NCBI GenBank assembly: GCA_027021385.1
Contig: JALUUL010000079.1
Location: 131,738-195,737, forward strand
Direction of reading: 5' to 3'
DNA length: 64,000 nt
Origin: Planctomycetota bacterium
GTDB lineage: Bacteria > Planctomycetota > UBA1135 > GCA-002748355
The stretch's first letter is position 1. The number at the start of each line of letters is the position of its first letter. The notes under the pieces are model-generated. The model was given only the letters and a program-made list of their open reading frames with translations, did no database searches and was not told the origin of the DNA. Shown one piece after another: positions 1-19,133 of the stretch. Position numbers and translations under genes: made by a program.

Positions 1-1076
1 TTCTGCCCGGCGTTGTCGAGACCCGAGACTCCGAAGAGGGGGCCGGGCACTCCGGGAGGGGCGGCCGTTCCGGCCTTTGCCGTATGGGGGTTGTGGCAGT
101 CTTGGCATTCCGCGTGCCTGGACATCGTCAGCGGATCCTCGGTCGGATCGTGGATTCCCTGCCAGCTTGAAGGGTTGTGTGCGGAGACCTTGGCGAGATC
201 GGTGGTGATGTCCTTGGATGCGACGTTTCCGTTGTGGCATCTCAGGCAGTTCTCCTCCTCGGTGGAGAAGTTGAGGAGTCTGTGAGGTTGTCCGGCGCTG
301 TGCGGGACATGACAGTTCGCGCAGGCGTTCTCCTGAACGGTCGTATAGGTGGTGTTGGGCCAGGGATCGGGCCCGGTCTGATTCCAGGTGGCCGAGGAGT
401 TCGCATGCGAAGCGGTGTTCCAGTCTCTCGGGTTGTGGCAGGAGAGGCAGAGAGAACCGTTCTTGTCCGTCGTCTTGAGGAATTTCCCCAGGGAGTCGTT
501 ATGGGCGTCGTGGCATGACGTGCACTGGACGAAGCCGTTGTGGTCGAGACTCACGGGAGGCTTGATGGCCGACCCGATGAAGAAGTCGACCCCCGTTCCT
601 CCCTTCGAAGTCGAGTAGTCGAAGGAGACGGGGTGATCATCTTGGAGATTGGTCCCAATATTGGCCTTTCCCGAGTTGAGGAACCTGGACCCGGACATCG
701 TGATTTCAGAAGTGAGGCTCACGACTTTCCCGAGCGCGATCGTTCCATCGTGGCAGGATAGGCAGAGTTTCGTCGATCCGTTGGGCTGGCCGACGTTCCC
801 CTTCAGGGTCGAGGAAGTATAGGGCAGGTAGGTCTGGGTGCTGTCGTCCCGATTCCATAAGGGGAATTGGGTCCGGGCCCGGTGAGGAGCATGGCAGAAG
901 ATGCAGATTCTCTCCTCGGAGAGGGCCTTGTAGGTGCCCGGCCCGGAAACGGAGAGGTTGTGCTTCGTGTTCTTGATCGAGGTTCCGCCGCCTTGCGTGA
1001 GCGGAAGGGGGAGGGCCCCGAAGAGCAGTGTCGCCGGGCCGAGGACGACCAAGACTTTGCTGAAAACGGGAATCAT
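1..1076 (-). CDS. Secreted multiheme cytochrome c, doubled-CXXCH type (3' end beyond the window)
   Basis: The reading frame starts at ATG 1076-1074 and stays open to the left edge, giving 358 visible residues. A hydrophobic signal segment (about residues 3-27) is followed by CXXCH motifs starting at residues 58, 105, 185, 210, 252, 277 and 324, so at least seven c-type hemes are exported. The first four have the same flanks and order as the tetraheme protein at 14159 (CHxPH, CLSCHDGT, DHPVSF, CxSCHDxHN, LCLSCH), so this is one copy of that module plus further hemes. The start overlaps the stop of the NHL gene by ATGA, making it the last visible gene of a four-gene operon. By family it is a secreted electron carrier; an extracellular or outer-surface position is inferred from the barrel gene in the operon. 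Electron partners are unknown. Confidence 0.88.
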   Translation of the reverse strand, partial: MIPVFSKVLVVLGPATLLFGALPLPLTQGGGTSIKNTKHNLSVSGPGTYKALSEERICIFCHAPHRARTQFPLWNRDDSTQTYLPYTSSTLKGNVGQPNGSTKLCLSCHDGTIALGKVVSLTSEITMSGSRFLNSGKANIGTNLQDDHPVSFDYSTSKGGTGVDFFIGSAIKPPVSLDHNGFVQCTSCHDAHNDSLGKFLKTTDKNGSLCLSCHNPRDWNTASHANSSATWNQTGPDPWPNTTYTTVQENACANCHVPHSAGQPHRLLNFSTEEENCLRCHNGNVASKDITTDLAKVSAHNPSSWQGIHDPTEDPLTMSRHAECQDCHNPHTAKAGTAAPPGVPGPLFGVSGLDNAGQ

Positions 1077-2116
1077 GGCTCCCTCGGATGGAATTTGAGG
1101 ATCTGGACCCTGGCGTTCCCACTATCGGCAACGAAGATCCTGTCCTTTGGATCGATGTAAAGCCCCGTCGGAAGGTAGAAATTCCCTAGTCCGGAACCCT
1201 TGGAGCCGACGGCAAGAAGGAGCCGGCCCTTCGGATCGAAGATCTGTATGTTGTCGAACATTCCATCTGCGACGTAGATGTGCCCTTGCGAATCCACCGC
1301 AATTCCTTTCGGGCTGGCGAAGGTTCCCGGGCCCCGTCCGACGACCCCGAAACTCGTCAGGGGTTCGAAGGCGGGGGAGAGGATTTGGATCCGGAAGTTC
1401 ATGCTGTCCGTGATATAGATCCGACTCTCGCGGTCGATACAGAGGTTCGTCGGGAAGTTGAACTCCCCGGGTTTCGCTCCTCTCCGGCCGTGCACCCCCA
1501 AGCGTTTCCCTGTGGGGTCGAAGCTCAGGATCCGTCCCCCCGTCGTGTCCAGGACCAGGAGTCTCCCCTCGTTCCGATCCCAGGCGATTCCGGTGGGTCT
1601 CCCCAACTCGTTCGGACTTCCGAACTTCCTGTGGTAGTTCCCCTCCCGGTCGAAGACGAAGATGCGTCCCAAGGTCGAATCGGAAAGGAAGACGAGACCG
1701 CCCGGTCCGAGGGCGACCCCGATCGGGGTTTTCAGCTTGGTCCGTCCCGCATTCCGGAAGAAGAGGTGTTCGCCCGATTCGAGGTCGAGGCGATGAAGAC
1801 CTCCGGCCCCGGGGTCCGCGATCCACAAGCGGTCCTTCTCGTCCACGGCGAGACCATAGGGGCTGACCAGTTGGAGTTCGTCGTGCCCGAGGAAGAAGCC
1901 GAAGATGGAGCTCCAGAACCCACGGCTACGCTCGACATCCCGCGTGGAATGATAGGCCATAAGGACTTCGACCCGGGGGTTCTCCGAGATCGGAGGCCAA
2001 CTGATCCGCTCCTTCGGGACGCGGAGGAAACGTGCGGGGCCGGCGGCGCAGGAGGCGAAGGAGAGGAGGGCGAGGCAGAGGAGTCGCGGGGGACGGGGTC
2101 GAGAATCCATGCTCAA
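1073..2116 (-). CDS. NHL-repeat beta-propeller lipoprotein
   Basis: This protein of 347 residues has an N-terminal hydrophobic segment ending in a possible lipobox (FASC, Cys23; the -3 residue is not ideal). It continues with about six NHL-type repeats between residues 75 and 345, recognised by recurring PxGIAVD and IYVADxxNxRIQIF patterns. NHL propellers bind proteins or glycans and are not themselves redox proteins. Both ends overlap neighbours by ATGA: its start lies in the stop of the barrel gene and its stop in the start of the cytochrome gene. A second member is at 15052, also beside a doubled-CXXCH cytochrome. A scaffold or assembly role for the extracellular cytochrome is inferred. 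A start at Met3 is possible. Confidence 0.85.
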   Translation of the reverse strand: MSMDSRPRPPRLLCLALLSFASCAAGPARFLRVPKERISWPPISENPRVEVLMAYHSTRDVERSRGFWSSIFGFFLGHDELQLVSPYGLAVDEKDRLWIADPGAGGLHRLDLESGEHLFFRNAGRTKLKTPIGVALGPGGLVFLSDSTLGRIFVFDREGNYHRKFGSPNELGRPTGIAWDRNEGRLLVLDTTGGRILSFDPTGKRLGVHGRRGAKPGEFNFPTNLCIDRESRIYITDSMNFRIQILSPAFEPLTSFGVVGRGPGTFASPKGIAVDSQGHIYVADGMFDNIQIFDPKGRLLLAVGSKGSGLGNFYLPTGLYIDPKDRIFVADSGNARVQILKFHPREP

Positions 2117-4059
2117 AACCTCCTGGCCACGGAAAGCATCGCATACAGGATCCGCTGATCGGTCGCGACGTCGAAAACCTCGTCGGAATACCGGACTTGG
2201 AACTTCACCTCCGTAGCGCGGAATCTCTGGATCAAGTTGGACTCGAAGAGGAATCCTTTCCCTTTGTCAGTCCGATACTTGATCTTCCGCCATTCGGCTC
2301 GGGTGTCGATCCTCGAGTTCTCGGAGAGAACCGCCAGAAGCTGGGCCTGGAGGGTCGTTCCGCGTTCCTTTCCCGTCTGGTCCTTGAATCTGGATTCGTA
2401 GGTCGTGGCGCTCGATCGGCCCTCCAGCCATTGGAGGATCCTCGTCGAGGTCGATGCGCCGAACTCCCACCTCTCGAAGGGGGTGAACTTGCTGTCGAGG
2501 TTCTCATACAGCCCGCGGACCTGATTGGGACCGGAATGGAGAGCCAGGCTGGCCTTCAACCTCGAGGAGTCGTCGAGAGTCCCCGAATCGAATCCTCCGA
2601 GAAGGGATTGATTCGTTTCGGACCAGGCGAGTTCGATGTCGGCGAACTCCAGGATATCGAATCCGAACGTCAGGGATTGTCCGACGCTCTTGAAACGCTG
2701 CTCCGGCCGGGGAAGAAAGAGGTAATCGACGAGGATCACCTGATTCGGGAGGATTCTGCTCCCCGCTGGAATCTCGATCCTGACCCTGCCCGCCGAGACC
2801 GAGATCAGGTAATCCGTTCCGTTCTGGTAGACCGTGAGTCCGGTCGCATCGGTGATGACGATGCTGGAGAGATCCACGCTGAAGTTGTTCAGGAGAAGGG
2901 GGATGCCCGGAATATAGGTATGGCTTTCATCCAGGACGCTGACAGGCTTGTCATCACTCTGCTCGTTCTGCCAGTAGGTGTCCTGGTGGTAGTTGATGCG
3001 GAGGTTACCGAAGAAGGTCTTCTTCCGGTAATCGATATCTCCTACGTAACCCGCGCGGTTGATCGCCGCATCTCCCTGGTCCGTCCTCTGTCCCTGGAAT
3101 CCGGCGCGCACGTCCAGGCTCGAAAAGAGTTCGTAGGTGAGGGTGGATGTATGCCTCCAGGTCTCATTCAGACTCGTATCGGCGTTGCGGACCCGGAAGT
3201 GATCGAAGATGAGGTCGTGGTCGGAGGAGAGGTTCTCTCTCCATTGGAAGTGGAGACTCGCGTTTCCGATCAGGGACTCGTTGTCGTAATCGCCGTTTTG
3301 TTCCCGGTAGCGGATGGAGTTCGAGAAGGTGTCCTGGTCCTTGTTCCCGAAGTTCCACCCATGAGAAAAGAAGGCATCGAGGTCCGTGAACTGGCTGTCG
3401 AAACTGCTGATCGTGATGTCGTTGTACTTGATCGAATACTGGAGCCTGCGTGTCTTGTCGAATCGACGTCCCTCGAACTCGAAGTTGTCCCTCGTCTCGT
3501 CGTTGTCGTCCAGCCCGCGACCTTTGTAGGTGTAATGATGGTAATGGAGCCTCGAGGGGATCCACCATTTCTTCGCGAGGAGGTCCATTCCCGTTTCGGT
3601 GACCGTGGCCTCGGTCGTTTCGAAGAAGGTCTGTCTGGTCCTCGTTTCCTGCCTGTTGGAATAGATGTGTGCGGAATAGGGATGCTGCCAGAGGATCCGG
3701 GCGTGGAAATCGTATCCAAGGTTCGTGCTGTTGATCGAACGGTTCCGGACTCCGGCCCCTCCGATCCATTGCTGTTCGAGCCCTAGCGACGTCGCGAGTT
3801 CGTATTCCAGGAGCCTGGGGTGGTAGATATCGCCGGCGAAGCGCAGGTGGAGGTCCTCTCGCAGGGTCTTCTCCTTCTCGATCAAAGTCGAATAGTCGGT
3901 GACCCTCCGCTCGTCCCGATACTCCCCGCGGAGCTGGAAGTCTCCGCCGAACTCCGTCAGATGGAACCATGTCCGCCGCTGGGCGTTCACCGAGGACGCG
4001 GCGGCCAGGAGAACCGGCAAGACCGTGAGGCAGGCTCTCGTTCCCGCCCGGTTCTTCAT
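2113..4059 (-). CDS. Large outer-membrane beta-barrel, porin of a cytochrome conduit (predicted)
   Basis: This 648-residue protein starts at ATG 4059, chosen because a GGAGGGGG ribosome site lies just upstream and the first codon overlaps the previous stop as ATGA. A signal peptide ending near VNAQ is followed by long stretches of alternating polar and aromatic residues typical of beta-strands, and the chain ends in ARRF, the terminal aromatic signature of BAM-inserted barrels. A middle segment (about 375-450) has the pattern VYxNGTDY...ILPNQVILVDY, which looks like an inserted beta-domain. It lies between a periplasm-facing heme lipoprotein and two exported proteins, the layout of porin-cytochrome conduits such as MtrB/PioB and Geobacter Omb systems. 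No clear similarity to those barrels was recognised, so the conduit role rests on context. Confidence 0.78.
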   Translation of the reverse strand: MKNRAGTRACLTVLPVLLAAASSVNAQRRTWFHLTEFGGDFQLRGEYRDERRVTDYSTLIEKEKTLREDLHLRFAGDIYHPRLLEYELATSLGLEQQWIGGAGVRNRSINSTNLGYDFHARILWQHPYSAHIYSNRQETRTRQTFFETTEATVTETGMDLLAKKWWIPSRLHYHHYTYKGRGLDDNDETRDNFEFEGRRFDKTRRLQYSIKYNDITISSFDSQFTDLDAFFSHGWNFGNKDQDTFSNSIRYREQNGDYDNESLIGNASLHFQWRENLSSDHDLIFDHFRVRNADTSLNETWRHTSTLTYELFSSLDVRAGFQGQRTDQGDAAINRAGYVGDIDYRKKTFFGNLRINYHQDTYWQNEQSDDKPVSVLDESHTYIPGIPLLLNNFSVDLSSIVITDATGLTVYQNGTDYLISVSAGRVRIEIPAGSRILPNQVILVDYLFLPRPEQRFKSVGQSLTFGFDILEFADIELAWSETNQSLLGGFDSGTLDDSSRLKASLALHSGPNQVRGLYENLDSKFTPFERWEFGASTSTRILQWLEGRSSATTYESRFKDQTGKERGTTLQAQLLAVLSENSRIDTRAEWRKIKYRTDKGKGFLFESNLIQRFRATEVKFQVRYSDEVFDVATDQRILYAMLSVARRF

Positions 4060-4790
4060 CGATGGCCCCCTCCCTCTCCCGGGCGCCACTTCGGAGGTCT
4101 GGTCTCCATGGATTTCCGGGTTTTGCCCCTGCTTTCCTTCCCCAGGCCGGGAACGACGGTTGCCTTGATCATGTAGCGGCGCTTGGAGGAATGGGGGTCA
4201 TGACATTCCGTGCAGGATCCCTTCTCGAAGGTCTTGTGGCGTTTCCTCGTGACGAAGGTGTCCCCCGTGTGGCACCGCGCGCAGAGGGTGTCGGGATTCT
4301 TGACTTTCAGGAGGTGGGGGTATGAGGACCGGTGGTGCTCATGGCACTGGGCGCACTCGCCGGCGGCCACCGGCCCATGGACGAAGGCTTCCTCGGGGGG
4401 CTTATGGCATTTCTTGCACAGGAGCTTTTTCGGAAGGCGCAGCTCGGACAGACCCTGCCTCCAGGTGGGCTGGGAGTTTCCTCCACGGGGAGCGGTCGAA
4501 TGGCAATCCCCGCATCGCTTCTCCTGGAAGGGTTTGTGGAAAAAGACCTCGACCTTCTTCAGCCGCTCCTCCTGGAGCTTGGCCCTCTCCTCTAGGGTCA
4601 GGGACCGGAGTTCAATTCGGGGAACCGGGCCGATGAAGTCGGGTGTTCCGGGAGTCCTGGGATCCGGAACCCCGTCGAAGAAGAAGGACAGGATCTCATA
4701 CTTCTTGAGGGCCGTACAGGCAGCCGTCACTCCAAGGGGGCAGAAGGCCAGGAGAAGCAGGAGGGCCGGAGGACTTCGTCGGAGCGACAT
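4056..4790 (-). CDS. Pentaheme cytochrome c lipoprotein
   Basis: The product has 244 residues if translation begins at 4790; the frame is open further upstream, but those residues look non-coding and precede the signal sequence. Residues 1-25 form a lipoprotein-like signal (VTAAC, Cys25). An FFFDGVPDP motif at 37-44, seen in other multiheme cytochromes of this kind, follows. CXXCH motifs start at 93, 125, 146, 170 and 193, with extra His at CHEHH and CHDPH able to act as axial ligands. It is first in the leftward operon and overlaps the barrel gene by ATGA. By analogy with conduit systems it would be the periplasmic heme protein docked in the barrel; this is inferred. Confidence 0.85.
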   Translation of the reverse strand: MSLRRSPPALLLLLAFCPLGVTAACTALKKYEILSFFFDGVPDPRTPGTPDFIGPVPRIELRSLTLEERAKLQEERLKKVEVFFHKPFQEKRCGDCHSTAPRGGNSQPTWRQGLSELRLPKKLLCKKCHKPPEEAFVHGPVAAGECAQCHEHHRSSYPHLLKVKNPDTLCARCHTGDTFVTRKRHKTFEKGSCTECHDPHSSKRRYMIKATVVPGLGKESRGKTRKSMETRPPKWRPGEGGGHR

Positions 4791-4912
4791 TCGGGAAGCC
4801 TGTCTTCGCTTGGGTCGGGAAATCGGGCGATCCGGACTCGGGCGAACCGCATCCCGAAGACCGGCCTCAGAGTCTCTTGATCCTTCCTTCCGCACCTCCG
4901 ACTTCAGGAGAA

Positions 4913-4928
4913 AGGGAACAGGATTGCA
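4913..4928 (+). promoter_or_regulatory. Candidate sigma-54 promoter for the rightward cytochrome operon
   Basis: AGGGAACAGGATTGCA has GG at 4914-4915 and GC at 4926-4927 with exactly ten bases between, and TTGCA at the -12 element. The -24 half is weaker (GGGAA instead of GGCAC). A start site near 4939 would leave about 95 bases of leader before the hexaheme gene at 5035. Confidence 0.5.
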
Positions 4929-4937
4929 ACATGAGTG

Positions 4938-4953
4938 AGCAAGGTCCATGCCG
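4938..4953 (-). promoter_or_regulatory. Candidate sigma-54 promoter for the leftward cytochrome operon
   Basis: Read on the minus strand this is CGGCATGGACCTTGCT: GG at 4952-4951, GC at 4940-4939, spacing N10, with GGCA and TTGCT both conserved. It would direct transcription into the pentaheme gene at 4790, and lies back to back with the plus-strand element at 4913. Confidence 0.6.
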
Positions 4954-5034
4954 GAGAACGGCCGTAGGGCGGACAGCTTGTCGCAAGATCAAGGAGTTCT
5001 CCCGGGGTTCCGATAGGGCTTTCGGAGGGGAAGC

Positions 5035-5790
5035 ATGCTTGGAATCGCGCGCTGGGGGGGCGCTGTCCTCTTGGGGACGATCGGGATGGCGGCCGGGGGA
5101 GAGGAAACGGTGACGGCCCTTGGCATGGAGATCTCCCCCTCCTCCCCGGTCGTCGCAGGGACCTCTGAGAGTTGCCTGTCCTGCCATCTTGATCTTCGGG
5201 GGAGGGGGCACCCTCTTGGTGATCGAATGCCGGAGGGAAGCGGCCTGCCTGGGGAGGCGGCCTTGGGGCTCGGTTGCTTGACCTGCCATGATTCGGGAAC
5301 GGTCCGGGATGACCATCGAAAATCCCGGGCCTCCCACTTGCGGGAGATTCCTCGCGTCCTGTGCAGGCGTTGTCATCGGGATCCGGAACCGGGGTCGCGT
5401 CTGGGGCACACGATGGACCTCGGCAGGGCGCACGCTTCCGGAGGGAGGGAACGAGGGGACAGGAAGGCCTTCCTCGGTGGAGTGGACCGCATATCCCTAG
5501 GATGCCTTGGCTGCCATGACGGAAGCGTCGCTTCGGAGGCCAAGGTCGACCTTCCCGGAGAGCCTCGGATTCCGGGAAGGGCCGGGTCGGGGCTGCAGCA
5601 TCCGATCGGAGCCCGGTCCATGGTAAGAGGGGCGGAAACGACACCTCCGTCTCCGCGACCGACGAGGTCGGATGCGCGGGAAGGGATCCTCGGATGTCTG
5701 AGCTGCCACGATCCCTGGAGCCCCTGGGAATCCCAGCTCTCGAGGAACCCTGAGGACGGCGGACTCTGCAGGTCCTGCCACGTGAAATGA
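5035..5790 (+). CDS. Secreted hexaheme cytochrome c
   Basis: The start is set by a GGAGGGGAAGC ribosome site directly before ATG 5035. A short signal segment (about 5-21) is followed by CXXCH motifs at residues 47, 81, 110, 157, 221 and 245 in a 251-residue protein. The last three hemes (CLGCHDGSVA, then an HPIG histidine, CLSCHDP, LCRSCHVK at the C-terminus) repeat the pattern of the tetraheme protein at 14159, so the two are paralogous over that part. It opens the rightward cytochrome set, behind a sigma-54-like element. The protein is probably a periplasmic or outer-surface electron carrier; nothing in the sequence fixes its side of the outer membrane. Confidence 0.85.
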   Translation: MLGIARWGGAVLLGTIGMAAGGEETVTALGMEISPSSPVVAGTSESCLSCHLDLRGRGHPLGDRMPEGSGLPGEAALGLGCLTCHDSGTVRDDHRKSRASHLREIPRVLCRRCHRDPEPGSRLGHTMDLGRAHASGGRERGDRKAFLGGVDRISLGCLGCHDGSVASEAKVDLPGEPRIPGRAGSGLQHPIGARSMVRGAETTPPSPRPTRSDAREGILGCLSCHDPWSPWESQLSRNPEDGGLCRSCHVK

Positions 5791-5836
5791 GCGGTTTCCC
5801 CGAGCCGCCAAGGGAAGCGTCATCTCTAACCGCCCA

Positions 5837-5852
5837 TGGTATGGTCTTTGCT
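5837..5852 (+). promoter_or_regulatory. Candidate sigma-54 promoter ahead of the parvulin gene
   Basis: TGGTATGGTCTTTGCT has GG at 5838-5839 and GC at 5850-5851 with N10 spacing, T before GG and TTGCT at -12, about ten matches to the twelve-base consensus. The start site would be near 5863, some 22 bases before the ATG at 5885. Confidence 0.6.
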
Positions 5853-5884: not shown

Positions 5885-6964
5885 ATGATCTTCGCGACTC
5901 TCACCCTGAGCCTCGCTCTTCCCCTTCTTCTCCAGACGAGCCGACCCTCGGGAGGGCCGGTTACCCGGGAGTCGAAGGAGCGGGCGGGAAAACCGGTGGA
6001 GAATCCTGTCCTTGCCGAGGTCGGGTCGGTGAAGATCCGCCAGAGCGATGTCCTTGCGGAGATCAACCGCCTGATTCCGCTGAACTTCTATCACGGGAAG
6101 GTCCCCGTGGAGAAGATGGAATCCTTCCGGGACAAGGCCCTCCAGTCCCTGATCGAACGGGCCCTGATCCACCAGGACGCGCTCGCCTCGGGGCTGCGGG
6201 CGGGCGAGGAGGAGATCCGCGCGACATTCGAGGCCTCTCTGAAGAAGGCCGGTCCCAAGTACTCCGAACTCCCGTCCGAGGAGAAGGCGAAACTCTTGGA
6301 AACATACCGGCCCCTCGTCGAGAGGAGGGTCTTGATCGACAAGAACGAGGCTCGTTTCGAAGCCTCCCTTCCTAAGGTCAAGGAGGAGGCCGTGAGGGCT
6401 ACGTACGAGGCGAGGAAATCCAAGCTGCTGGCGCCCCGTGAGGGCCATTTCCTCCACATCCTCTTGAAGGTCGATCCCGGCGCCAGCGAGGCCGAGATCG
6501 CGAAGGCGAAGGAGAAGATGCTGAAGGCCCGGAAGGAGATCCTCGGAGGGCGCCCCTTCGCGGAGGTCGCGAAGGAGATCTCCCAGGATATCTATGCCTC
6601 GAGGGGCGGGGACATGGGATGGGTCAAGGAGGGGAGTTTTCTCGGGGGGCCGGTCGGGGAGGCTGCGTTCAAGCTCGAGGCGGGAGAACTCTCGGAACTC
6701 GTCTCCTCGATCTATGGCTTCCATCTTGTCCAGTGTCTGGCCTGGAAACCGCGGAAGACGATGTCTTTCGAGGAAGCCAGAAAGAGTATCGAAATCGAAC
6801 TCGAGGAGGCGATCCGGCGTTCGGCGCGGGAGCGCTGGCTGGCGACCCTGAGAGAGCGCTTTCCGGTGAAGATCCATCGAGTCGGGATCCTCGCGGAATC
6901 CCCGAAGGAAGAAACCGCTTCCTCGAAGCCGGCCTCCCGTCCCGGCCCGCATGGAGGGCGCTGA
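5885..6964 (+). CDS. SurA/PrsA-type periplasmic peptidyl-prolyl isomerase
   Basis: This 359-residue protein has an N-terminal hydrophobic segment (residues 1-17), a SurA-N-like chaperone region (about 40-165: VGSVKIRQSDVLAEIN and following helices) and a parvulin domain at about 180-295 (HFLHILLKV, then RPFAEVAKEIS, GGDMGWV, YGFHLVQ). Parvulins catalyse cis-trans isomerisation of prolyl bonds and escort exported proteins. Isomerase genes are also found in extracellular cytochrome clusters of Geobacter and relatives, so a role in folding cytochromes or the barrel is likely but inferred. An AGGA ribosome site lies eight bases before the start. Confidence 0.88.
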   Translation: MIFATLTLSLALPLLLQTSRPSGGPVTRESKERAGKPVENPVLAEVGSVKIRQSDVLAEINRLIPLNFYHGKVPVEKMESFRDKALQSLIERALIHQDALASGLRAGEEEIRATFEASLKKAGPKYSELPSEEKAKLLETYRPLVERRVLIDKNEARFEASLPKVKEEAVRATYEARKSKLLAPREGHFLHILLKVDPGASEAEIAKAKEKMLKARKEILGGRPFAEVAKEISQDIYASRGGDMGWVKEGSFLGGPVGEAAFKLEAGELSELVSSIYGFHLVQCLAWKPRKTMSFEEARKSIEIELEEAIRRSARERWLATLRERFPVKIHRVGILAESPKEETASSKPASRPGPHGGR

Positions 6965-10111: not shown

Positions 10112-13100
10112 TCAAGGAGTGAGTTCCAGCTTGGGGCGGATGGCCGAGCGATATCTGAGATAGGACAGCACGATGACGGCGATCTCGAAGATGCAGAAGA
10201 GGGCCGCATAGAGCAGTCCTCCTTCCGAGGAGCCGTAGGAATGCAGGCCCGCGGCGAGAACGAAGTTGACCCCGTAATACGTCATGACGACGGAGAGGAA
10301 GCTGGCGATCGAAGAGACGGCCAGTCCGAAGGGGTGGAGCCAGCCCGCGAAGCGTGCATGCACGATGCCCAGGTAGACGAAGAAGGTGATCAGGGACCAG
10401 GTTTCCTTCGGATCCCAACCCCAGTACCTCCCCCAACTTTCGTTGGCCCAAATGGCGCCGAAGACGATCCCGGCCGCGAGAAAGAGGAGTCCGACCTGCA
10501 TCGTCTTGTAGGTGAGGTTCGTGAGGGTCCGGAGCATCTCGGTCCTCCCGGGCCGGAACAACTGGACCCAGATGACGATATGACCGAGTCCCATGTTCAG
10601 GGCGAAGGCGGAATAGGCCAGCATGATCGTCATCACGTGGACCGACAACCAGTAGGTGTGGGCCAGGACGGGCACGAGGGGGTTGATCGAGGAATCCAGG
10701 GGCAGGTGCTCCGAGAAGAGAAGGCAGAGGAAGCCCATCAGGCTTGCAACGAGTCCGAAGAAACGCTTGCGGTAGAGGAACTCGAGGAAGAGCCCGATCG
10801 CGATCGTGCCCCAACCCATGAAAACCAGGGATTCGTACATGTCCGAGACCGGAGCCCTTTCGGCGATTGCCCATCTGAGTCCGATGCCGGTCGTGTGAGC
10901 GGCGAAACCGAGGATCAGGGCCGTCATGCCCGCCCAATATCCCTTCCGGTTCTTGACGAAACCGAAGAAGAGGATCAGCAGGAAGCTCAGCAGATAGGCC
11001 TTCCAGGCCTTCCCGAAGGCCTCGAACTCTTCGTAAAAGATCTCCAGGGATAGGGCTTCCTCCGGAGGGTAGGTCTCGGGGCCCGCTTCCCGGAGAATTC
11101 CCGTCAGTTCTTCGGCGGCCTTGCCGAAGTCCTGTGGATCCTTGTCCCTCCATGCCTTGGACATCCGGATGAAACCGGCAAAGATCCGTTTTTGCAGGTC
11201 CGACTTCGCGTCCTTGAAGTCGTTCGGAGTTTCCCATTTTCCCTGGGAATCCTTGACGGGAACGATACGGAGGGATGTGCCGCGGAGAATCCCGGAGAGT
11301 AGTTCCAGGCGGCGGTAGACCTCGAGGGCGTCCTTCTCGATCTTCGTCAGGTCTTCGTGATTGCGGTCCTTGGTGATCGCGCGACCGGCGACCTCTTGGA
11401 ACCGCGGATGCATCATGAGCCGCAGGAAGGAGAAGCGTTTCTTCCCCTCCTCCAACTCCATCAAGGCCTTGAGTTCCTTACTGTCGATCCGGATATACGG
11501 TCGATTCCGGAAATCCTCCGGGGCGAGGTTGTAGCCCCAGAGCAGTTCGAGAGAGCTCAGGCCGTCGTGCTTCCTATGCCCGGTGATCGCGGTCGCGAAC
11601 TCGTTCGCGAAAGTGAGAAGGGGTTTGATTCTTCCCGAGGACTGGATGGCCCAGGCCTTGGTCTTCTCGACCGGCATTCCCGTCGGGCCGCCTGAGGCCT
11701 TCGCGGGCACGGAGGAGAGCAGGACCGCGGCCAGGAACCAGAAACCCGTCAATGCCCCCTTCGTTGCGGTATGACCCATGTTCGTGGCCTCCTGTGCGGG
11801 GTTCTTTTCCATGTTCGTCACCGACTCCTTCCTGTTCATGGGTTCCGGCCCGTCGATCCCGGGCCTCCTCGGTTTTCCGTGTCCGCGCAGATACCAGGCG
11901 ATTCCCAGGATGATCAGAAAGAAACTCGGGTAGACGATCGGGACTCCCGGGTCCTTGGAGACGGAGAGGATCGTCATGTCCGGGCCGCCTCTCTCCCCGA
12001 GCTGGTAACTGCTTTGGAAGAGCCGGAAGCCTCCGTAGTCGAGCGGGCGGTTCATCGAGATCACGGTCTCGATAGGCTCCTCGTCGATCCCGTGCGGAGT
12101 CACCTTGACCTTCGAGGCATAGGTCTTGGGACGCCTCGAACCGGGGTAGAACTCCAGGATGAAGTCCTCGAGTTCGAGACTGAAGGGCAGTTCCTTCGTC
12201 GAGCGTTTATAGGCGAAGAGGAGCGAGCCTCCTTCGAGTCCGATTTCGTCGTCCCAACCCCGGCCGATCCAGAAGGTGTTTTCCTTCCCCTTCCAGTGGG
12301 CCTTCAGTTTCAGGAAGGCGCGATTCGTCTCTTTCCCCTTCTTGGAGGATTCGACCCGGACCTCGGCCTTGGCGCTCTTCACGAACCGTTCGAGTTTGAA
12401 ATCCAATCCGAGGTTTCCGACTGCGATTGTCTGCCCCTCGATGATTTCGAGGGCGGGCCCCCGCCCGATCGAGGCCGAGAGTTGGATCCAGAACCTCTTG
12501 CCTCCGTCATGGAGGATCGAGACCAAGGGCTTCTTGCCGGCGGAATTCGCCTCGAGGCGGATCCTTTGAACGAGGGGGGCTCCCTTCTGGCCCCGGATCG
12601 AGTTGAAGGTAGGGAAATTGGCGAAGACCTTGTGGATCTCTGTGTGGCTCTTCCCCCGGACCTCGACGACGGCGGCGGGATTACTGCCCGATCCGGGGAC
12701 GTTGCGCAGCTTGCCCTGGACGATCTTGGCTTCAGGCATGAAGGACAGGACCTTCACCGAGATTCCTTCCCCGGCCTGGACGACCTTCCCGAGAGAAGCG
12801 GGAAGGGGGAGGTCCAGGGGGGAACCTTTCTCGGACACGAGGACACGGATGCTGGAGCCACCGGTCTTTCGCTCGGGGAGACGGCCTTTCAAGGCTTCCG
12901 GGTCCCGGATCACGAGGAACTCGATCTCGACCGGGCCGACGTCCTTCCTGCGGAAGTCGGCATGGTCGGCGATCAGCCATTGCCTGCCCTCGACACCCAT
13001 CCCGGAGAGCTGGAACTGGATGCCTGGGCTCCCCTCCACCCCGGCGTCCGTAAGGTGGACGTAAGGGGTCCCATCCTCGAGGAAGCGTTCGATCGAGAGG

Positions 13101-13624
13101 CCGGGATGCCCTTCCTCCTCCTCGAGGAGGGTGATCCCCGCGAGTCGCACGGTGTCGGGGAGTTCGAGGATCTCGTGGTAGGGCTTTCCTTTCAGGGGCT
13201 TCCAGCGTAGATCGAGGTGGCTGCGATCCAGGAAGAGGGTCCTCGATTCGGTTCCCTCCTGCACGGCCATCCGCCCCTCGTATCCGAAGGTCCGGGACAC
13301 CCAACCTCCGAAGAGGAGCAGGACGATCGAGAAGTGGGTGAGGACGAAGGCCCACTGATGCCGTTTGATCGGGATCCGGTTGATGACCGCCACGATCAAG
13401 TTGACGGCGATCAGGAAGAGGAAGAGATCGAACCAGGCCGTCCGGTAGACCCAGGATTGGGCGAAGGCCCTTGAGGTCGAGGATTCGATCAGGGTCCCGA
13501 CGATCATCGCGACCACCCCGAAGATGAGCAGGACCATCGTGAACTGGACCTTGCCCAGGAAGCGGAGGAAGCGGAGGGCCGCGGGTTCTGTCTTCGTGCT
13601 CATGCGGGCGTCCATCCCGGTCAA
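10112..13624 (-). CDS. Fused ResB-CcsA cytochrome c synthetase (system II, CcsBA)
   Basis: At 1170 residues this single protein joins both halves of system II. The ResB half has three transmembrane helices (about 27-110), a large periplasmic domain and a fourth helix near 565. The CcsA half has its own signal-like helix near 620, a periplasmic insert and a block of about eight helices (about 880-1155) carrying the WWD-type heme-handling motif WGRYWGWDPKETW near residue 1065. The enzyme exports heme and ligates it to CXXCH cysteines, which all the neighbouring cytochromes need. Fused CcsBA is known in Helicobacter, Wolinella and Bacteroidetes. A near-perfect sigma-54 element lies upstream. Starts at residues 4 or 8 are also possible; none has a strong ribosome site. 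Confidence 0.92.
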   Translation of the reverse strand: MTGMDARMSTKTEPAALRFLRFLGKVQFTMVLLIFGVVAMIVGTLIESSTSRAFAQSWVYRTAWFDLFLFLIAVNLIVAVINRIPIKRHQWAFVLTHFSIVLLLFGGWVSRTFGYEGRMAVQEGTESRTLFLDRSHLDLRWKPLKGKPYHEILELPDTVRLAGITLLEEEEGHPGLSIERFLEDGTPYVHLTDAGVEGSPGIQFQLSGMGVEGRQWLIADHADFRRKDVGPVEIEFLVIRDPEALKGRLPERKTGGSSIRVLVSEKGSPLDLPLPASLGKVVQAGEGISVKVLSFMPEAKIVQGKLRNVPGSGSNPAAVVEVRGKSHTEIHKVFANFPTFNSIRGQKGAPLVQRIRLEANSAGKKPLVSILHDGGKRFWIQLSASIGRGPALEIIEGQTIAVGNLGLDFKLERFVKSAKAEVRVESSKKGKETNRAFLKLKAHWKGKENTFWIGRGWDDEIGLEGGSLLFAYKRSTKELPFSLELEDFILEFYPGSRRPKTYASKVKVTPHGIDEEPIETVISMNRPLDYGGFRLFQSSYQLGERGGPDMTILSVSKDPGVPIVYPSFFLIILGIAWYLRGHGKPRRPGIDGPEPMNRKESVTNMEKNPAQEATNMGHTATKGALTGFWFLAAVLLSSVPAKASGGPTGMPVEKTKAWAIQSSGRIKPLLTFANEFATAITGHRKHDGLSSLELLWGYNLAPEDFRNRPYIRIDSKELKALMELEEGKKRFSFLRLMMHPRFQEVAGRAITKDRNHEDLTKIEKDALEVYRRLELLSGILRGTSLRIVPVKDSQGKWETPNDFKDAKSDLQKRIFAGFIRMSKAWRDKDPQDFGKAAEELTGILREAGPETYPPEEALSLEIFYEEFEAFGKAWKAYLLSFLLILFFGFVKNRKGYWAGMTALILGFAAHTTGIGLRWAIAERAPVSDMYESLVFMGWGTIAIGLFLEFLYRKRFFGLVASLMGFLCLLFSEHLPLDSSINPLVPVLAHTYWLSVHVMTIMLAYSAFALNMGLGHIVIWVQLFRPGRTEMLRTLTNLTYKTMQVGLLFLAAGIVFGAIWANESWGRYWGWDPKETWSLITFFVYLGIVHARFAGWLHPFGLAVSSIASFLSVVMTYYGVNFVLAAGLHSYGSSEGGLLYAALFCIFEIAVIVLSYLRYRSAIRPKLELTP

Positions 13625-13744: not shown

Positions 13745-13760
13745 TGCAAGGCACGTGCCG
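13745..13760 (-). promoter_or_regulatory. Near-perfect sigma-54 promoter for the CcsBA gene
   Basis: On the minus strand the site reads CGGCACGTGCCTTGCA, matching GGCACG-N4-TTGCA completely; only the T preceding GG is replaced by C. The -24 GG is at 13759-13758 and the -12 GC at 13747-13746. Transcription would start near 13734, about 110 bases before the CcsBA start. Confidence 0.78.
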
Positions 13761-13935: not shown

Positions 13936-13954
13936 TGTCATCGCAATGTCATCG
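13936..13954. repeat. Tandem TGTCATCG repeat, possible activator binding site
   Basis: TGTCATCG occurs at 13936-13943 and again at 13947-13954, an 11-base period that puts both copies on one face of the helix. It sits about 70 bases upstream of the rightward -24 element at 14024 and about 180 bases upstream of the leftward one at 13759, a usual distance for NtrC-type enhancers. A near copy, TGTCTTCG, is at 4801. Binding by the local activator is inferred. Confidence 0.35.
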
Positions 13955-14022
13955 AATGCATGGCGGGGACCCGGAAAAGGATGCGGCAATTGCGCACGAG
14001 GTCCGGGGCCGTCTTTTCCGGG

Positions 14023-14038
14023 TGGCCTGCTTGTTGCT
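14023..14038 (+). promoter_or_regulatory. Candidate sigma-54 promoter for the tetraheme cytochrome gene
   Basis: TGGCCTGCTTGTTGCT has TGGC at -24 (GG at 14024-14025), TTGCT at -12 (GC at 14036-14037) and N10 spacing. Transcription would start near 14049 and run through two hairpins before the coding start at 14159. Confidence 0.65.
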
Positions 14039-14055
14039 CTTCTCCCGGTCGCTCA

Positions 14056-14093
14056 CCTCGGAGGCGGCTCCGAGGAGCCCGCCTAGGGGCGGG
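14056..14093 (+). promoter_or_regulatory. Two tandem GC-rich hairpins in the tetraheme leader
   Basis: CCTCGGAG-GCGG-CTCCGAGG (14056-14075) and CCCGCC-TAGG-GGCGGG (14078-14093) are perfect stems of eight and six pairs with four-base loops. They lie just downstream of the predicted start site and some 55 bases before the ribosome site, where they could stabilise the message. No T-run follows, so they do not look like terminators. Confidence 0.5.
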
Positions 14094-14158
14094 AAGACGA
14101 GAAACTGAAAACCGTTCGTTGGACACCTTCCCTGCCACAGATGGAAAGGATGAAAGTC

Positions 14159-14842
14159 ATGAAACTAACCGCCGGACTCCTGTCCTTGGGTTGCCTGATC
14201 GCGCTGAGCGCCCCCGCTTCTGCGCAGATCAAGAACTCCACCCACGACTTCAGCACGAAGACCTGGAACTTCCGTGCGGAAATTTGCCGGGTCTGCCACG
14301 TTCCTCACGACCATGACTACACCACCAAGCGCGGCCTTGTCTCAGGTCTGTTGTGGAACCACGCGCTCTCCAGCGCGACCTACACGATGTATACCAGCCC
14401 CTCCCTGGATGGAGCCATCGACTCCGCGCCGACCGGGACCTCGAAGCTCTGCCTCGGCTGCCATGACGGCACTGTCGCCCTCGACGCCTTCGACAAGAAC
14501 CCGGACAACTGGGTCGGCAGCTACCTCGGCGGCAGCGCCCGGGTGCCGGGGAGCAACTACTGGAGCGGCAGCACCGGCGACTTGAGGGCCACGCACCCGA
14601 TCTCCATCGTCTACGACGAGACGAAGGACAAGGGGCTGGCACCGAAGACCACGACCTTCGGCGGCTCCGGGACGATCGCGGACGTCCTCGAGGGTGGGAC
14701 CAAGGTCCAGTGCTCGACCTGCCACGATGTCCACAACGAAGCGGGCGAGGCCGTTCCCGGCACCCACCTGCTCCGCATCGCCCAGACCACGGCACAGGGC
14801 GGCACGGCTTCCGGGCTCTGCCTCACCTGCCACGTGAAGTAA
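14159..14842 (+). CDS. Secreted tetraheme cytochrome c, candidate extracellular nanowire-type subunit
   Basis: ATG 14159 is preferred because AAAGGA lies eight bases upstream; in-frame ATGs at 14141 and 14150 are alternatives. The 227-residue product has a signal peptide ending in ASA (mature start QIKNSTHDF) and CXXCH motifs at 43, 98, 185 and 221, the last almost at the C-terminus. Additional histidines (STHDF, CHVPHDHD, WNHA, ATHPIS, CHDVHN, GTHLL) can supply distal ligands. The gene has a sigma-54-like promoter, a leader with hairpins, its own strong terminator and many C-ending codons, all suggesting high expression. Size, heme number and context resemble small tetraheme cytochromes that polymerise outside cells, such as OmcE, but filament formation is not shown by sequence. 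Confidence 0.85.
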   Translation: MKLTAGLLSLGCLIALSAPASAQIKNSTHDFSTKTWNFRAEICRVCHVPHDHDYTTKRGLVSGLLWNHALSSATYTMYTSPSLDGAIDSAPTGTSKLCLGCHDGTVALDAFDKNPDNWVGSYLGGSARVPGSNYWSGSTGDLRATHPISIVYDETKDKGLAPKTTTFGGSGTIADVLEGGTKVQCSTCHDVHNEAGEAVPGTHLLRIAQTTAQGGTASGLCLTCHVK

Positions 14843-15051: not shown

Positions 15052-16281
15052 ATGAACCCTTCCTTCCAAGCCAGCATGCGCCGGTTTTCGAGAGCCTGTC
15101 GGTTCTCCCTCAGCTGCAGCGTCATCTTCCTCCTCGGATCCTGCGCCTCCGCGGGTTCGAGGGAGGGGGAGCAGGAGAAGGTCTTCTACCCCGAACCGCC
15201 CGATCCTCCGAGGATCCAGTTCCTGATGGCGATCGCCGACGGTGAAGACCTGGAGGGAGGACCCTCCGGTCTGGACAGCCTCCTCTTCGGCGGGAAGAAG
15301 AAAGGAGGCAAGCCCCTACTGCGGCCCTTCGGGGTGACCTTCCATGAGGGAAAGGCCTACATCACGGACACCCGTCTCGGAGTCGTGATCATCGCCGACC
15401 TCGAGAAGAAGAAGGTGGACCTCGCTCCCGTCAAAGGAAGAGGGCGGACGATGAAGCCGATGGCCGTCGAAGTACTCGAGGACGGTCGGATCCTCGTTGC
15501 GGACGCCGGCAGGCGCCAGATCGTCTTCTACGACCGGAACTGGAAGTACCAGGCGGAATGGGGTCCCTTCGGCAAGGGGAGCGTCCCCGTCGACGTGAAG
15601 GTCAAGGGGAACCGGGTCTACGTCGTCGACGGGAACCGGAAGGGGGGAAGCCTCCGTGTGCTGGACCTGAAAACGGGGAAGGAACTGTTCGTTCTGGGGA
15701 AGAAGGAGACCCGGGCCGAATTCCTCCGGGGTCCGACGAGCGTAGCAGTCGATGACAAGGGATTCATCTACGTCGTCGACACGATCTACTGCCAGGTCTA
15801 CGTCTGGGACAAGGACGGAAATTTCGTCCGCCACATCGGAGAACCGGGGGACATGGCGGGGCAGTTCGGGCGCCCCAAGGGGATCGGGGTCAGCGAGAAC
15901 CTCCTCTTCGTCCTGGACACAGCCTTCGAGAACTGTCAGCTCTTCGATCTGGACGGGCGGATCCTGATGTTCTTCGGTGGGCCGGGGACGGGTCCCGGTC
16001 AGATGTACATGCCCGCGAAGATCTGGGTCGGGGACGAGGGTCTCGAATACTTCAAGGACAGGATCGATCCGGATTTCAAAGCCGAACATCTGATCCTCGT
16101 GACGAACCAGTTCGGCCCGAACAAGCTTGCATTCTACGCGTTGGGTCACCACAAGAAGTTCAAGTATCCGAAGAGCGAGCTACCGGAAGTTCCCTCCAAG
16201 CAGGCCCCCGAGGAAGATCCCGCGAAGAAGGGGCCCGGCGCCCCCCGAAAGGGAGCCGGGTCCGGGGAAATGCTGGACTAG
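15052..16281 (+). CDS. NHL-repeat beta-propeller lipoprotein
   Basis: This 409-residue protein has a signal ending in a good lipobox (LLGSC, Cys31), then propeller repeats from about 95 to 370 (RPFGVTF...AYITDT, GPTSVAVDDKGFIYVVDT, RPKGIGVSENLLFVLDT), and a charged Pro/Lys/Gly tail. It is a distant paralog of the NHL protein at 1073, and each lies next to a doubled-CXXCH cytochrome. Its own sigma-54-like promoter implies co-regulation with the tetraheme gene. A surface scaffold or assembly factor role is inferred. A start at Met9 is possible, but the GGAGAG upstream of 15052 favours the longer form. Confidence 0.85.
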   Translation: MNPSFQASMRRFSRACRFSLSCSVIFLLGSCASAGSREGEQEKVFYPEPPDPPRIQFLMAIADGEDLEGGPSGLDSLLFGGKKKGGKPLLRPFGVTFHEGKAYITDTRLGVVIIADLEKKKVDLAPVKGRGRTMKPMAVEVLEDGRILVADAGRRQIVFYDRNWKYQAEWGPFGKGSVPVDVKVKGNRVYVVDGNRKGGSLRVLDLKTGKELFVLGKKETRAEFLRGPTSVAVDDKGFIYVVDTIYCQVYVWDKDGNFVRHIGEPGDMAGQFGRPKGIGVSENLLFVLDTAFENCQLFDLDGRILMFFGGPGTGPGQMYMPAKIWVGDEGLEYFKDRIDPDFKAEHLILVTNQFGPNKLAFYALGHHKKFKYPKSELPEVPSKQAPEEDPAKKGPGAPRKGAGSGEMLD

Positions 16282-16290
16282 GCCGCGAAC

Positions 16291-17745
16291 TTGACGAACG
16301 ACGCTCCGCGATCGACCGGGGAAACCGCCGCCTCTCCCTCTTCCACCGAGGAGAAGAAGGTCCTCGGTCCTCTCCTCAGGAAAGGCGAGGCGGGGGGGCT
16401 GCCATCCTCGATGGCCTGGTTGATCCAGTTGCGCTGGATCGCGGTCCTCTGCGTCTCCCTGACCCTCGTCCTGGCTTTCGGACTGGGGGTCATCGACCAC
16501 CTCCTTCCCCCCCTGGGCGTGGTCTTCGGGCTGTCCCTGTTCAACGCGACGCTCTGGGCCGCAGGGAGGAAGCACCTTCCGATCGCCATCCCGGGGCCTC
16601 CCAAGAGCCGATACCGGCGTGTGATCGCCCTGCAGCTCCATGTGGACCTGTTCGCCCTCACGCTCCTGTTGCATTGGTCGGGCGGGGTCGAGAACCCGTT
16701 CTCCCTGTTCTACCTTTTCCACATCGCGATCGGTTCGATCCTCCTGACCACGAGGCAGACCGCCGTGCTCGTCGCCAGCGGTTGCCTGATGTTCTGTGTC
16801 CTGAGCCTCGGGGAATACGGGGGATTCCTGGAACACCATCCGATCAAGCTGATCTCGGGGATCGACGGAGAGGACTCCTCCCTGCTTGCGATCTCCCCTT
16901 TCTTCGTGCTTGGAAAGGTCTTCGCGACCTGCCTGACGATGGTCGGAGTCGCCTTCTTCCTCCAATCGGTCGTGCGCCGGCAACGGGAAGCGGAGATCCT
17001 CCGCCGGCAGCACGAGAGGATCGCCGTCTCGAGGCAGCGCCTGGCCCGGATCGGCGAGATCTCCGCCGGGCTCGCTCACAGCATCCGCAATCCCCTCCAT
17101 GGCGTCCTCAACTGCCTCGAGATGGTTCCCGAGGAGGCTCTGGATGAGTCTGATCGAGAGAACCTCGCGCTGATGAGGGAGGGTTTGTACCGGATCCAGG
17201 GAGTCACGGACCGCCTCTTGGTCCTGACGCGGGACGCCCCTCTCCGGAGGCAACCGGGCGATCTCATCGACCAGGTTCGGGAGCTGATCCGTTACGTCGA
17301 GCCCCAGGCCGCGAAGGCGGGGATCGAGATTCGGTCCGAACTGGCTCCCGTTCCCTCCCTGATGCTCGATCCGGACCGCATCCACGAGGTCCTTTTCAAT
17401 ATTCTCGACAACGCCCTCGACGCCTGCCGGGAATCCGGCGGCCGGCGGATCACGATCCGTGGGGGCACGGCGTCAGGGGACGGCGGCAAGGCCTTCATCG
17501 AGATCGAGGACGAGGGGCCGGGCCTCGAGGAGGGCTGGATCGAGAAGATTTTCGACCCCTTTTTCACGACGAAGGCCATCGGAGAGGGAACTGGCCTCGG
17601 ACTTGCAATCGCAAGGAGGGTCGTGGAAGAACATGGAGGCCGGATCCTCGTCCGGAGCAAAAAGGGCAGGGGGTGTTGCTTCAGGGTCGAGCTTCCTCTC
17701 GGGGACCGGCCTCTGGCCCAGGAACTCGAAGGGGAGGACGCATGA
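16291..17745 (+). CDS. Membrane-bound sensor histidine kinase
   Basis: About six hydrophobic helices (residues 45-230) form the membrane sensor. They are followed by a dimerisation helix with the phospho-acceptor His in GLAHSIRNPLHG and an ATP-binding domain with N-box NILDNALDA, G1 box DEGPGL and G2 box GTGLGLAIARR. The frame can begin at TTG 16291, nine bases after the NHL stop, with no clear ribosome site; ATG 16414, just before the first helix, is an alternative. Its stop overlaps the start of the sigma-54 activator gene, so the two are translated together and form a two-component pair. The signal is unknown; a quinone or redox signal would fit but is speculation. Confidence 0.9.
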   Translation: MTNDAPRSTGETAASPSSTEEKKVLGPLLRKGEAGGLPSSMAWLIQLRWIAVLCVSLTLVLAFGLGVIDHLLPPLGVVFGLSLFNATLWAAGRKHLPIAIPGPPKSRYRRVIALQLHVDLFALTLLLHWSGGVENPFSLFYLFHIAIGSILLTTRQTAVLVASGCLMFCVLSLGEYGGFLEHHPIKLISGIDGEDSSLLAISPFFVLGKVFATCLTMVGVAFFLQSVVRRQREAEILRRQHERIAVSRQRLARIGEISAGLAHSIRNPLHGVLNCLEMVPEEALDESDRENLALMREGLYRIQGVTDRLLVLTRDAPLRRQPGDLIDQVRELIRYVEPQAAKAGIEIRSELAPVPSLMLDPDRIHEVLFNILDNALDACRESGGRRITIRGGTASGDGGKAFIEIEDEGPGLEEGWIEKIFDPFFTTKAIGEGTGLGLAIARRVVEEHGGRILVRSKKGRGCCFRVELPLGDRPLAQELEGEDA

Positions 17746-19133
17746 AGCCGAATCTGCAAGTCCTCGTTGTGGACGACGACCGGATCAGCCGCCTGACGAC
17801 TGCGCAGCGATTGCGGAAAGGGGGGTACGGCGCGGATGCCGTCGAGAATCCCTTTCTGGCTCTCCAGAGGCTCGGCGAGGAGCGCTGGGACGTCGTGCTC
17901 ACGGATCTGCGCATGCCTCGCATGTCAGGCATCGAGTTCCTGAAGAAGGTCAAGGAGAAGCATCCGGAAGTCGAAGTCATCTTGATGACGGCCTTCGCGA
18001 CGGTCGAGACGGCAGTCGAAGCGATGCAGTCGGGCGCGTCGGACTATCTCGTGAAACCCTTCCGGTTCGAAGAGTTGGATCTACGTCTGAAGAAACTGCA
18101 GGAGCTGAAGGAAGCGCACAAGGAACTCGACCATCTCCATGCGATCCTCGGTGATGCGAAGGGTTTCGGAGGGTTGGTCGGGCATTCCCCCCTGATCCGT
18201 GAGGTCTATGAGAGGATCCAGATCTTCGCGGATCATGACGCTCCGGTCCTGATCACCGGGGAGACCGGGACGGGAAAGGAACTGGTCGCGCGGGCGCTGC
18301 ACCAGGGGAGTTCGAGGGCACAAGGCCCCTTCGTGCCGATCGCCTGCGGGACAATCCCTCCGGAACTGGCGGAAAGCGAACTCTTCGGCCATGAGAAAGG
18401 AGCGTTCACCGGCGCCCACCAGCGCAGGGAGGGAAGCTTCGGGCGGGCGGACGGCGGCACCGTCCTGCTCGACGACATCGATGACCTGCCCTTGAACATC
18501 CAAGTCAAGCTGCTCCGCGTCCTCCAGGAAGGGACCCTGATCCGGGTCGGGGGGACGGAGGAGATCCGGATCGACGTCCGCGTGATCGCGACGACGAAGG
18601 TGGACCTCGCCGAGGAGGTCGAGCACGGCAGGTTCCGGGACGACCTCTTCTATCGACTGCGGGGCCTGGAGATCCGCCTGCCTCCGCTCCGAGAGCGGGG
18701 GGAGGACGTGCTCCTGCTCGCCAAACACTTCATCGATCTCGTCGCTTCCCGGGAGGGGAAGGAACCGAAGCCCTTGTCCCTCGAGGCCGCCCGACTGCTC
18801 CGGGAATACCACTGGCCCGGCAACGTGCGTGAGTTGCGCCGGGCGATGGAGTCGGCCTTCATCTTGTGCCGGGGCGAGGAGATCCTTCCCGAGCATTTCC
18901 CCGCCTTTCTGCCCCGCCGGAGGGGGGAGCCCGGGAAGGATCTCCAACCTTTCTCCCTCCACCTCGACGGGCTCGAGCGCATCGATTTCAACGAGATGGT
19001 CCAGACCTTCGAGGATGCGATGATCCTTTGGGCCCTTTCTCAAGCAGGCGGGCAGCAGACGAAGGCGGCGGAACTCCTCGGCCTCCCTCGCACGACCTTT
19101 CAGAGCAAGCTGAACCGTACCCATCCCGGGTGA
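17742..19133 (+). CDS. NtrC-family sigma-54-dependent response regulator
   Basis: This 463-residue protein starts at ATG 17742, inside the kinase stop (ATGA), with GGGGAGG in front. It has a receiver domain (about 5-125, VVDDDR, DLRMP, KPF), an AAA+ domain (about 145-380) with Walker A GETGTGKE, the sigma-54 contact loop GAFTGA and an arginine-finger region, and a C-terminal Fis-type helix-turn-helix (TKAAELLGLPRTTFQSKL). Such proteins bind upstream sites and remodel RNA polymerase bound to sigma-54. Several -24/-12 elements lie in the cytochrome locus that ends with this gene, making them its likely targets. Confidence 0.93.
   Translation: MKPNLQVLVVDDDRISRLTTAQRLRKGGYGADAVENPFLALQRLGEERWDVVLTDLRMPRMSGIEFLKKVKEKHPEVEVILMTAFATVETAVEAMQSGASDYLVKPFRFEELDLRLKKLQELKEAHKELDHLHAILGDAKGFGGLVGHSPLIREVYERIQIFADHDAPVLITGETGTGKELVARALHQGSSRAQGPFVPIACGTIPPELAESELFGHEKGAFTGAHQRREGSFGRADGGTVLLDDIDDLPLNIQVKLLRVLQEGTLIRVGGTEEIRIDVRVIATTKVDLAEEVEHGRFRDDLFYRLRGLEIRLPPLRERGEDVLLLAKHFIDLVASREGKEPKPLSLEAARLLREYHWPGNVRELRRAMESAFILCRGEEILPEHFPAFLPRRRGEPGKDLQPFSLHLDGLERIDFNEMVQTFEDAMILWALSQAGGQQTKAAELLGLPRTTFQSKLNRTHPG

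Follow-up and report, generated by a model that had tools for sequence, protein, structure and literature searches.

Gene content of the locus

We analysed a 64-kb stretch of DNA (hereafter the window; bases 131738–195737 of the 214.5-kb contig JALUUL010000079.1) from the genome of a Planctomycetota bacterium (GCA_027021385.1; 3.69 Mb, 93% complete). One end of it carries a cluster of multiheme cytochrome genes together with genes for a predicted outer-membrane beta-barrel, NHL-repeat proteins, cytochrome maturation and a two-component system (Table 1), and the whole is likely a trans-envelope electron conduit. The original prediction, made from the letters alone, had seen a complete electron export system here, with quinol entry, periplasmic hemes, a porin, surface cytochromes, maturation and control in one locus. 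Pfam and homology searches bear out components of these kinds side by side (the porin as a predicted barrel, the surface cytochromes as OmcE-like proteins), and relatives keep a core cluster of them. The word 'complete' understated the extent of the locus, as the contig continues leftward of window base 1 and the locus runs 5.8 kb further, to coordinate -5809.

The count of six multiheme cytochromes with at least 46 heme motifs in the window was reproduced (7, 5, 6, 9, 15 and 4 CX2-4CH motifs, the first in the gene cut by the window edge; sum 46, or 45 when CXXCH alone is counted). All open reading frames of at least 100 amino acids with a CXXCH motif lie within 1–14842, and there are none in the remaining 49 kb of the window. 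With the off-window part included, the locus encodes eight multiheme cytochromes with 71 heme-binding motifs over about 25 kb. The Pfam scan of the window proteins found multiheme domains, NHL repeats, a rotamase, a NapC/NirT N-terminus, ResB with Cytochrom_C_asm, and a sigma-54 activator with a histidine kinase, in agreement with the NHL, parvulin, NapC-type, CcsBA, kinase and activator assignments made earlier.

The large protein ending in phenylalanine that had been taken for a barrel is predicted to be all-beta, with 29 long strands, a small conserved insert at about residues 385–450 and the C-terminus VARRF; MtrB heads its structural matches in the PDB, and structure prediction thus gave no sign that it is something other than a barrel. 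The stop codon of mhc5b overlaps the start codon of the barrel gene (ATGA). One homologue of the barrel, P0004, bears the Pfam accession PF27730.1, which the Pfam scan here did not report.

Two cytochromes resemble OmcE, the nanowire protein of Geobacter sulfurreducens (7TFS). The tetraheme mhc4 (9yuq_N, E 1.5e-12; OmcE 7tfs, E 5.9e-11) and residues 18–215 of mhc12 (7tfs, E 1.7e-32) align over nearly the whole length of OmcE, and both keep its eight histidines of ligand type (those of the four heme motifs and four others), as judged by the alignment pattern. Unlike OmcE, mhc12 has eight additional heme motifs C-terminal to this tetraheme module, and a filament in the present organism is a prediction from homology. 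In 41 aligned rows of the mhc12 family, 14 histidines outside CXXCH are invariant against 12 heme motifs, two above the need of bis-histidine ligation; the surplus pair could bind heme of a partner.

Two further cytochromes are related to MtrA, namely mhc5b, to part of it, and the off-window 15-heme protein (6r2q_A), which scores 148 bits against TIGR03508, below the cut-off of 192.2 for MtrA/DmsE-type decahemes. The locus thus shares with MtrCAB and MtoAB these cytochromes and a barrel whose first fold match is MtrB, but it differs from them in having 15-heme and 5-heme proteins rather than a decaheme, in lacking an MtrB_PioB match, and in that no MtrC-type decaheme was found above cut-off among the proteins scanned.

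Some listed open reading frames start too early: mhc5b would begin near 4790, to judge from its signal peptide, and mhc9 probably at 7144, because the sole strong ribosome-binding site found for it is located there.

Table 1. Genes and promoter-like sites of the locus, in window coordinates (negative values lie outside the window)
Feature	Coordinates	Strand	Remarks
Cytochrome b	-5809..-4760 (off-window)	-	domain above Pfam cut-off
Rieske protein	-4760..-4338 (off-window)	-	domain above Pfam cut-off
5-heme cytochrome with C-terminal transmembrane (TM) segment	-4310..-3339 (off-window)	-	
AhpC/TSA-TPR protein	-3486..-2479 (off-window)	-	
MtrA-like 15-heme cytochrome	-2452..-866 (off-window)	-	
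mhc12, 12-heme cytochrome, 574 aa complete	1..1076, off-window to -648	-	Sec-type signal; OmcE match
NHL1, NHL-repeat (propeller-type), probable lipoprotein	1073..2110	-	Pfam; clearer lipobox in relatives L018, L019
Predicted outer-membrane beta-barrel, 648 aa, C-terminal Phe	2113..4059	-	
mhc5b, 5-heme cytochrome (partial MtrA homologue)	4056..4790	-	6r2q_A E 2.4e-6; start inferred
Sigma-54-type site, 10/12	4938..4953	-	upstream of inferred mhc5b start (5-heme/barrel operon)
mhc6, 6-heme cytochrome	5035..5790	+	motif count, Pfam
Sigma-54-type site, 10/12	5837..5852	+	upstream of parvulin gene
Parvulin-type peptidyl-prolyl isomerase	5885..6964	+	PF00639 E 7.3e-18; UetB counterpart by content
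mhc9, 9-heme cytochrome, C-terminal TM segment	7144..8427	+	start moved from 6619
Predicted quinol dehydrogenase, 15-heme cytochrome with N-terminal membrane anchor of NapC/NrfH type	8429..10090	+	PF03264 E 6.1e-13; NrfH 2j7a E 0.0021
CcsBA-type cytochrome c maturation fusion (ResB + CcsA)	10112..13624	-	Pfam
Sigma-54-type site, 11/12	13745..13760	-	upstream of ccsBA; ccsBA site in L023 too
Sigma-54-type site, 10/12	14023..14038	+	upstream of mhc4; mhc4 sites in L019, L021, L023 too
mhc4, tetraheme OmcE-like cytochrome, candidate filament subunit	14141..14842	+	Sec signal
NHL2, NHL-repeat lipoprotein	15052..16281	+	LLGSC lipobox; Pfam
Membrane histidine kinase	16291..17745	+	PilS-like TM region, HisKA, HATPase_c; Pfam
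Sigma-54-dependent response regulator	17742..19133	+	receiver, AAA+, Fis-type HTH; Pfam

Distribution of the core cluster

The closest source-named relatives of the barrel and the 12-heme protein are from Planctomycetota (P0003, P0137, P0168), which by itself makes a planctomycete host probable, and more distant relatives of the latter (at most 54%) come from Nitrospirae, Woeseia and others. Among 154 genomes of the host order, barrel and 12-heme protein occur in an identical set of eight. In a sample of 392 genomes of the phylum, searched at E ≤1e-100 for the 12-heme protein (with a maximum of three candidates scored per genome) and at E ≤1e-3 for the barrel, the former was found in 16, the latter in 19 and both in 15 (Fisher p ~1e-22, kinship ignored). 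Reading of the loci brought the genomes with both markers to at least 17, as two of the four in which the search had found the barrel only (G463 and G490) do have an adjoining 12-heme gene (L065, L066); this reading took in neither of the other two, G291 and G193, the latter with a weak fragment. The sole genome with only the 12-heme protein, G223, has its gene on a 3.7-kb contig.

We examined 42 loci from Planctomycetota and other groups, of which the 37 with a barrel are the base of the co-occurrence counts, several misses falling at contig ends. NHL1 and the 12-heme protein are encoded near the barrel in 36 of the 37, followed by the 5-heme protein (30), NHL2 (29), the tetraheme (27), the MtrA-like 15-heme protein (24), the kinase (13), the response regulator (11), the 6-heme protein (9) and the AhpC/TSA-TPR protein (5). 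In the single barrel locus without NHL1 and 12-heme genes (L067) the contig breaks off, and the same genome has the pair on another contig (L070). In L014, L055, L064 and L066, among others, the genes follow one another without a break as tetraheme, NHL2, 5-heme, barrel, NHL1 and 12-heme; the window differs in that its tetraheme–NHL2 pair is set apart, beside the kinase and the regulator. In the Phycisphaerae metagenome-assembled genome OFTM243 (L016 of G508), three 12-heme matches on three contigs suggest that a single organism can have the cluster in several copies.

The neighbourhood search proposed with the original prediction showed that the core cluster (barrel, NHL1 and 12-heme protein, usually with the 5-heme protein, NHL2 and the tetraheme) is present in Planctomycetota, in the phylum of genome G507 (distinct from the host's, since it counts 40 genomes against more than 392) and in Gammaproteobacteria. 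The view that such clusters are known mainly from Geobacter was therefore too narrow. In the phylum of G507, the 12-heme protein was found in 12 of the 40 genomes and the barrel in five of eight further loci, with other members between the barrel and the NHL1/12-heme pair. In the gammaproteobacterial class of G509, six of 274 genomes have the 12-heme protein and all six loci have the barrel; the 5-heme gene is absent there, and one locus (L104) includes triheme genes. In two gammaproteobacterial loci (L100, 1260–4271; L101, 16050–19094), the cluster is followed by genes for 24-heme proteins beside a further NHL gene, and also by pairs of 8-heme genes, which would represent a different relay joined to the same core. 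In L107 (5773–10504; phylum of G507), genes for a Rieske protein and for 10- and 12-heme cytochromes, along with a weak match to cytochrome b, adjoin the NHL1/12-heme pair, a second case of bc-type linkage, with no barrel in the DNA examined.

Promoter-like sites and surroundings

A scan for -24/-12 elements (GG and GC invariant, with a minimum of 10 matches to the 12 consensus bases) found four sites in the 26 kb of the locus, all on the correct strand ahead of an operon, whereas the final 44 kb of the window contain one (Poisson p ~0.003, the background being a single site). Among relatives, L023 has five of six sites in place, ahead of the 5-heme (12/12), tetraheme, parvulin, CcsBA and 15-heme genes; L019 and L021 each have one of four in place, ahead of the tetraheme gene (a perfect one in L019), and L022 has two of two. 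As the locus encodes its own sigma-54 response regulator, its control is likely to be self-contained, judging by these sequence features.

The regulator gene is followed by a tRNA gene at 19381–19454 on the minus strand. GC content in 5-kb bins is 0.60–0.64 in the locus and 0.62–0.68 in the surroundings, which hints only weakly at an acquired island. At the other end, 3.5 kb past the cytochrome b gene, lies a gene for an ApbE-family flavin transferase (E 1.2e-62; L002:8269–9414, window -10469 to -9324), adjoined by one for an FGE-sulfatase-type protein; a flavinylation tie between the ApbE-family gene and electron transfer is possible.

Proposed route, direction and alternatives

Citations below refer to excerpts of the papers concerned. 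The nearest published gene set is Uet (undecaheme electron transfer), known from Tenderiales that oxidise cathodes and from the iron oxidiser Gallionella (PMC10734462). By that description, Uet comprises a tetraheme, a peptidyl-prolyl isomerase, a beta-barrel, NHL proteins and an 11- or 12-heme cytochrome, for which the present locus appears to have counterparts. The isomerase (UetB) and NHL proteins (UetHI) correspond at family level; mhc4 is likened by description to the extracellular UetA, agreeing in heme count and adding OmcE similarity, as is the predicted barrel to UetC, and mhc12 has 12 motifs where the published potential-UetJ cluster includes 11 and 12 (PMC10734462). No triheme protein like the three periplasmic cytochromes UetDEG occurs among the locus proteins; 5-, 6-, 9- and 15-heme proteins stand in their place, and NapC-type, Rieske/cytochrome b, CcsBA and sigma-54 two-component genes are added. 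The gene content appears to match Uet closely, and we call the locus Uet-like rather than class it as Uet, because UetDEG are absent and the Tenderia proteins were compared by description only. The Geoalkalibacter ferrihydriticus locus Ga0056053_02426-02431 has in common an MtoA-like and an OmcE-like protein, a quinol cytochrome and two NHL proteins, and according to the excerpt is without mtoB and mtoD (PMC12016550). In Desulfovibrio ferrophilus, DFE_0448-0451 and DFE_0461-0465 likewise combine multiheme cytochromes with NHL-repeat proteins, but porin-cytochrome conduits are, in the excerpt, not apparent (PMC9769857). Porin-cytochrome, PCC4 or DFE-type genes have been reported previously in some Planctomycetota (PMC10732223, PMC5566968, PMC13055281, PMC13264449), the DFE type from metagenome-assembled genomes (PMC13055281). 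Within the literature covered, the new elements are the full anatomy in Planctomycetota, the combination of two quinol-entry modules and a 15-heme relay of MtrA type, the probable sigma-54 control, the cross-phylum core cluster and the recognition of the 12-heme protein as an OmcE module with eight further heme motifs.

The sequences show which genes are present, what they resemble, that ligand-type histidines are conserved and that the genes cluster, with promoter-like sites among them; from this we infer localisation, complexes, a filament and a direction. On this basis, it is quite probable that the locus encodes a porin-cytochrome system linking the quinol pool and the cell exterior through the predicted barrel to OmcE-like surface cytochromes, which would assemble into a filament. 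Drawn for export, the route would start from quinol at two points, the NapC-type 15-heme protein and the pair of Rieske protein and cytochrome b, joined by a TM-anchored 5-heme protein. It would go on across the periplasm through three cytochromes, namely mhc9 with its TM anchor, mhc6 and the MtrA-like 15-heme protein. The product of mhc5b, whose gene overlaps that of the barrel, would sit inside the barrel; mhc12 would take up the electrons at the surface, where the NHL1 lipoprotein would keep it in place, and feed a filament of mhc4. Maturation of the set would fall to the parvulin and CcsBA, and the kinase and sigma-54 regulator would switch its expression on. The composition of mhc12, an OmcE module plus eight more heme motifs, suggests a further arrangement, which we put forward tentatively: its N-terminal module may cap or nucleate the mhc4 filament and its eight-heme part, held by NHL1, dock on the barrel, so that one cluster in several phyla would plug an extracellular wire into a porin.

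Several observations weigh against this conduit and its control as drawn. The TM-scores of the barrel model are low (0.33), and the protein is therefore firm only as a large barrel; it has no Pfam family at E 0.1 and, with the limit relaxed to 1, H_lectin alone (E 0.26), and a genome-wide search for the MtrB/PioB family (PF11854), as suggested originally, found nothing. Modelling of the OmcE-like part of mhc12 was poor (pLDDT <50 for most of residues 1–149), and L110 has mhc12 and NHL1 with no barrel in 20 kb. Near the 37 barrels, parvulin and CcsBA-like genes were each found in eight loci, the NapC-type gene in six and the Rieske/cytochrome b pair in the window alone; entry and maturation genes are therefore not core, and the maturation enzyme noted as the locus's own holds for this host but seldom elsewhere. 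Over the window and seven relatives, about 13 of 22 sigma-54-type sites stand, on our reading, ahead of a locus gene, with none in place in L018, L020 and L024. In Desulfovibrio ferrophilus, Fe(III) oxide reduction was unimpaired after deletion of cytochrome genes of NHL-containing clusters (PMC9769857).

The same route could also run inward, with electrons drawn from minerals, Fe(II) or partner cells and handed to oxygen or the quinone pool, and the word 'export' in the original prediction claimed more than the sequence can fix. Against export stand the sources of Uet, cathode-oxidising Tenderiales and iron-oxidising Gallionella (PMC10734462), and the role in iron oxidation proposed for the Geoalkalibacter locus, with its MtoA-like, OmcE-like and two NHL proteins (PMC12016550); the undecaheme family does not fix direction, since such cytochromes are cited for a manganese reducer as well as for Tenderiales that oxidise iron (PMC13264449). 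The three heme-copper-oxidase-family genes of the host would suit uptake with oxygen as the final acceptor, but RuBisCO, the carbon-fixation route searched for, had no match in the 93% complete genome. Quinol oxidation is the usual role of NapC-type and Rieske/cytochrome b modules. Taken together, quinol-oxidising modules, heme-copper oxidases and the lack of a RuBisCO match favour a respiring organism exporting surplus electrons, and within the conduit reading we lean towards this direction. As an overall explanation in its own right, uptake is rather improbable.

It is very unlikely that the multihemes instead serve a soluble substrate such as nitrite or a sulfur compound in a periplasmic or outer-membrane enzyme system. 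In favour of this reading, the locus shares paired-CXXCH and NrfH-like domains with nitrogen-cycle cytochromes, there is one weak Cytochrom_C552 match below cut-off (E 0.076), and octaheme reductases appear among the insignificant fold matches of mhc12. However, no catalytic-subunit family lies above cut-off in the scanned locus proteins, the recurring core consists of the barrel, NHL and OmcE-like cytochromes, and no tie of the locus to an unrelated enzyme was seen, the relatives' loci not having been searched for catalytic subunits or nitrogen-cycle enzymes.

A porin-cytochrome conduit of this kind bears on how nanowires are anchored in the membrane and where electrons enter them, questions called open in a 2025 review (PMC12307469, in excerpt). 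At least three groups keep together a barrel, an NHL protein, a cytochrome combining a nanowire module with eight further heme motifs and, usually, a free nanowire-type subunit, which makes the anchoring question testable on a few named genes. For the Planctomycetota, a phylum with few such reports, the locus points to an elaborate system for extracellular electron transfer, probably under regulation, whose distribution is patchy and limited to a minority of its members.

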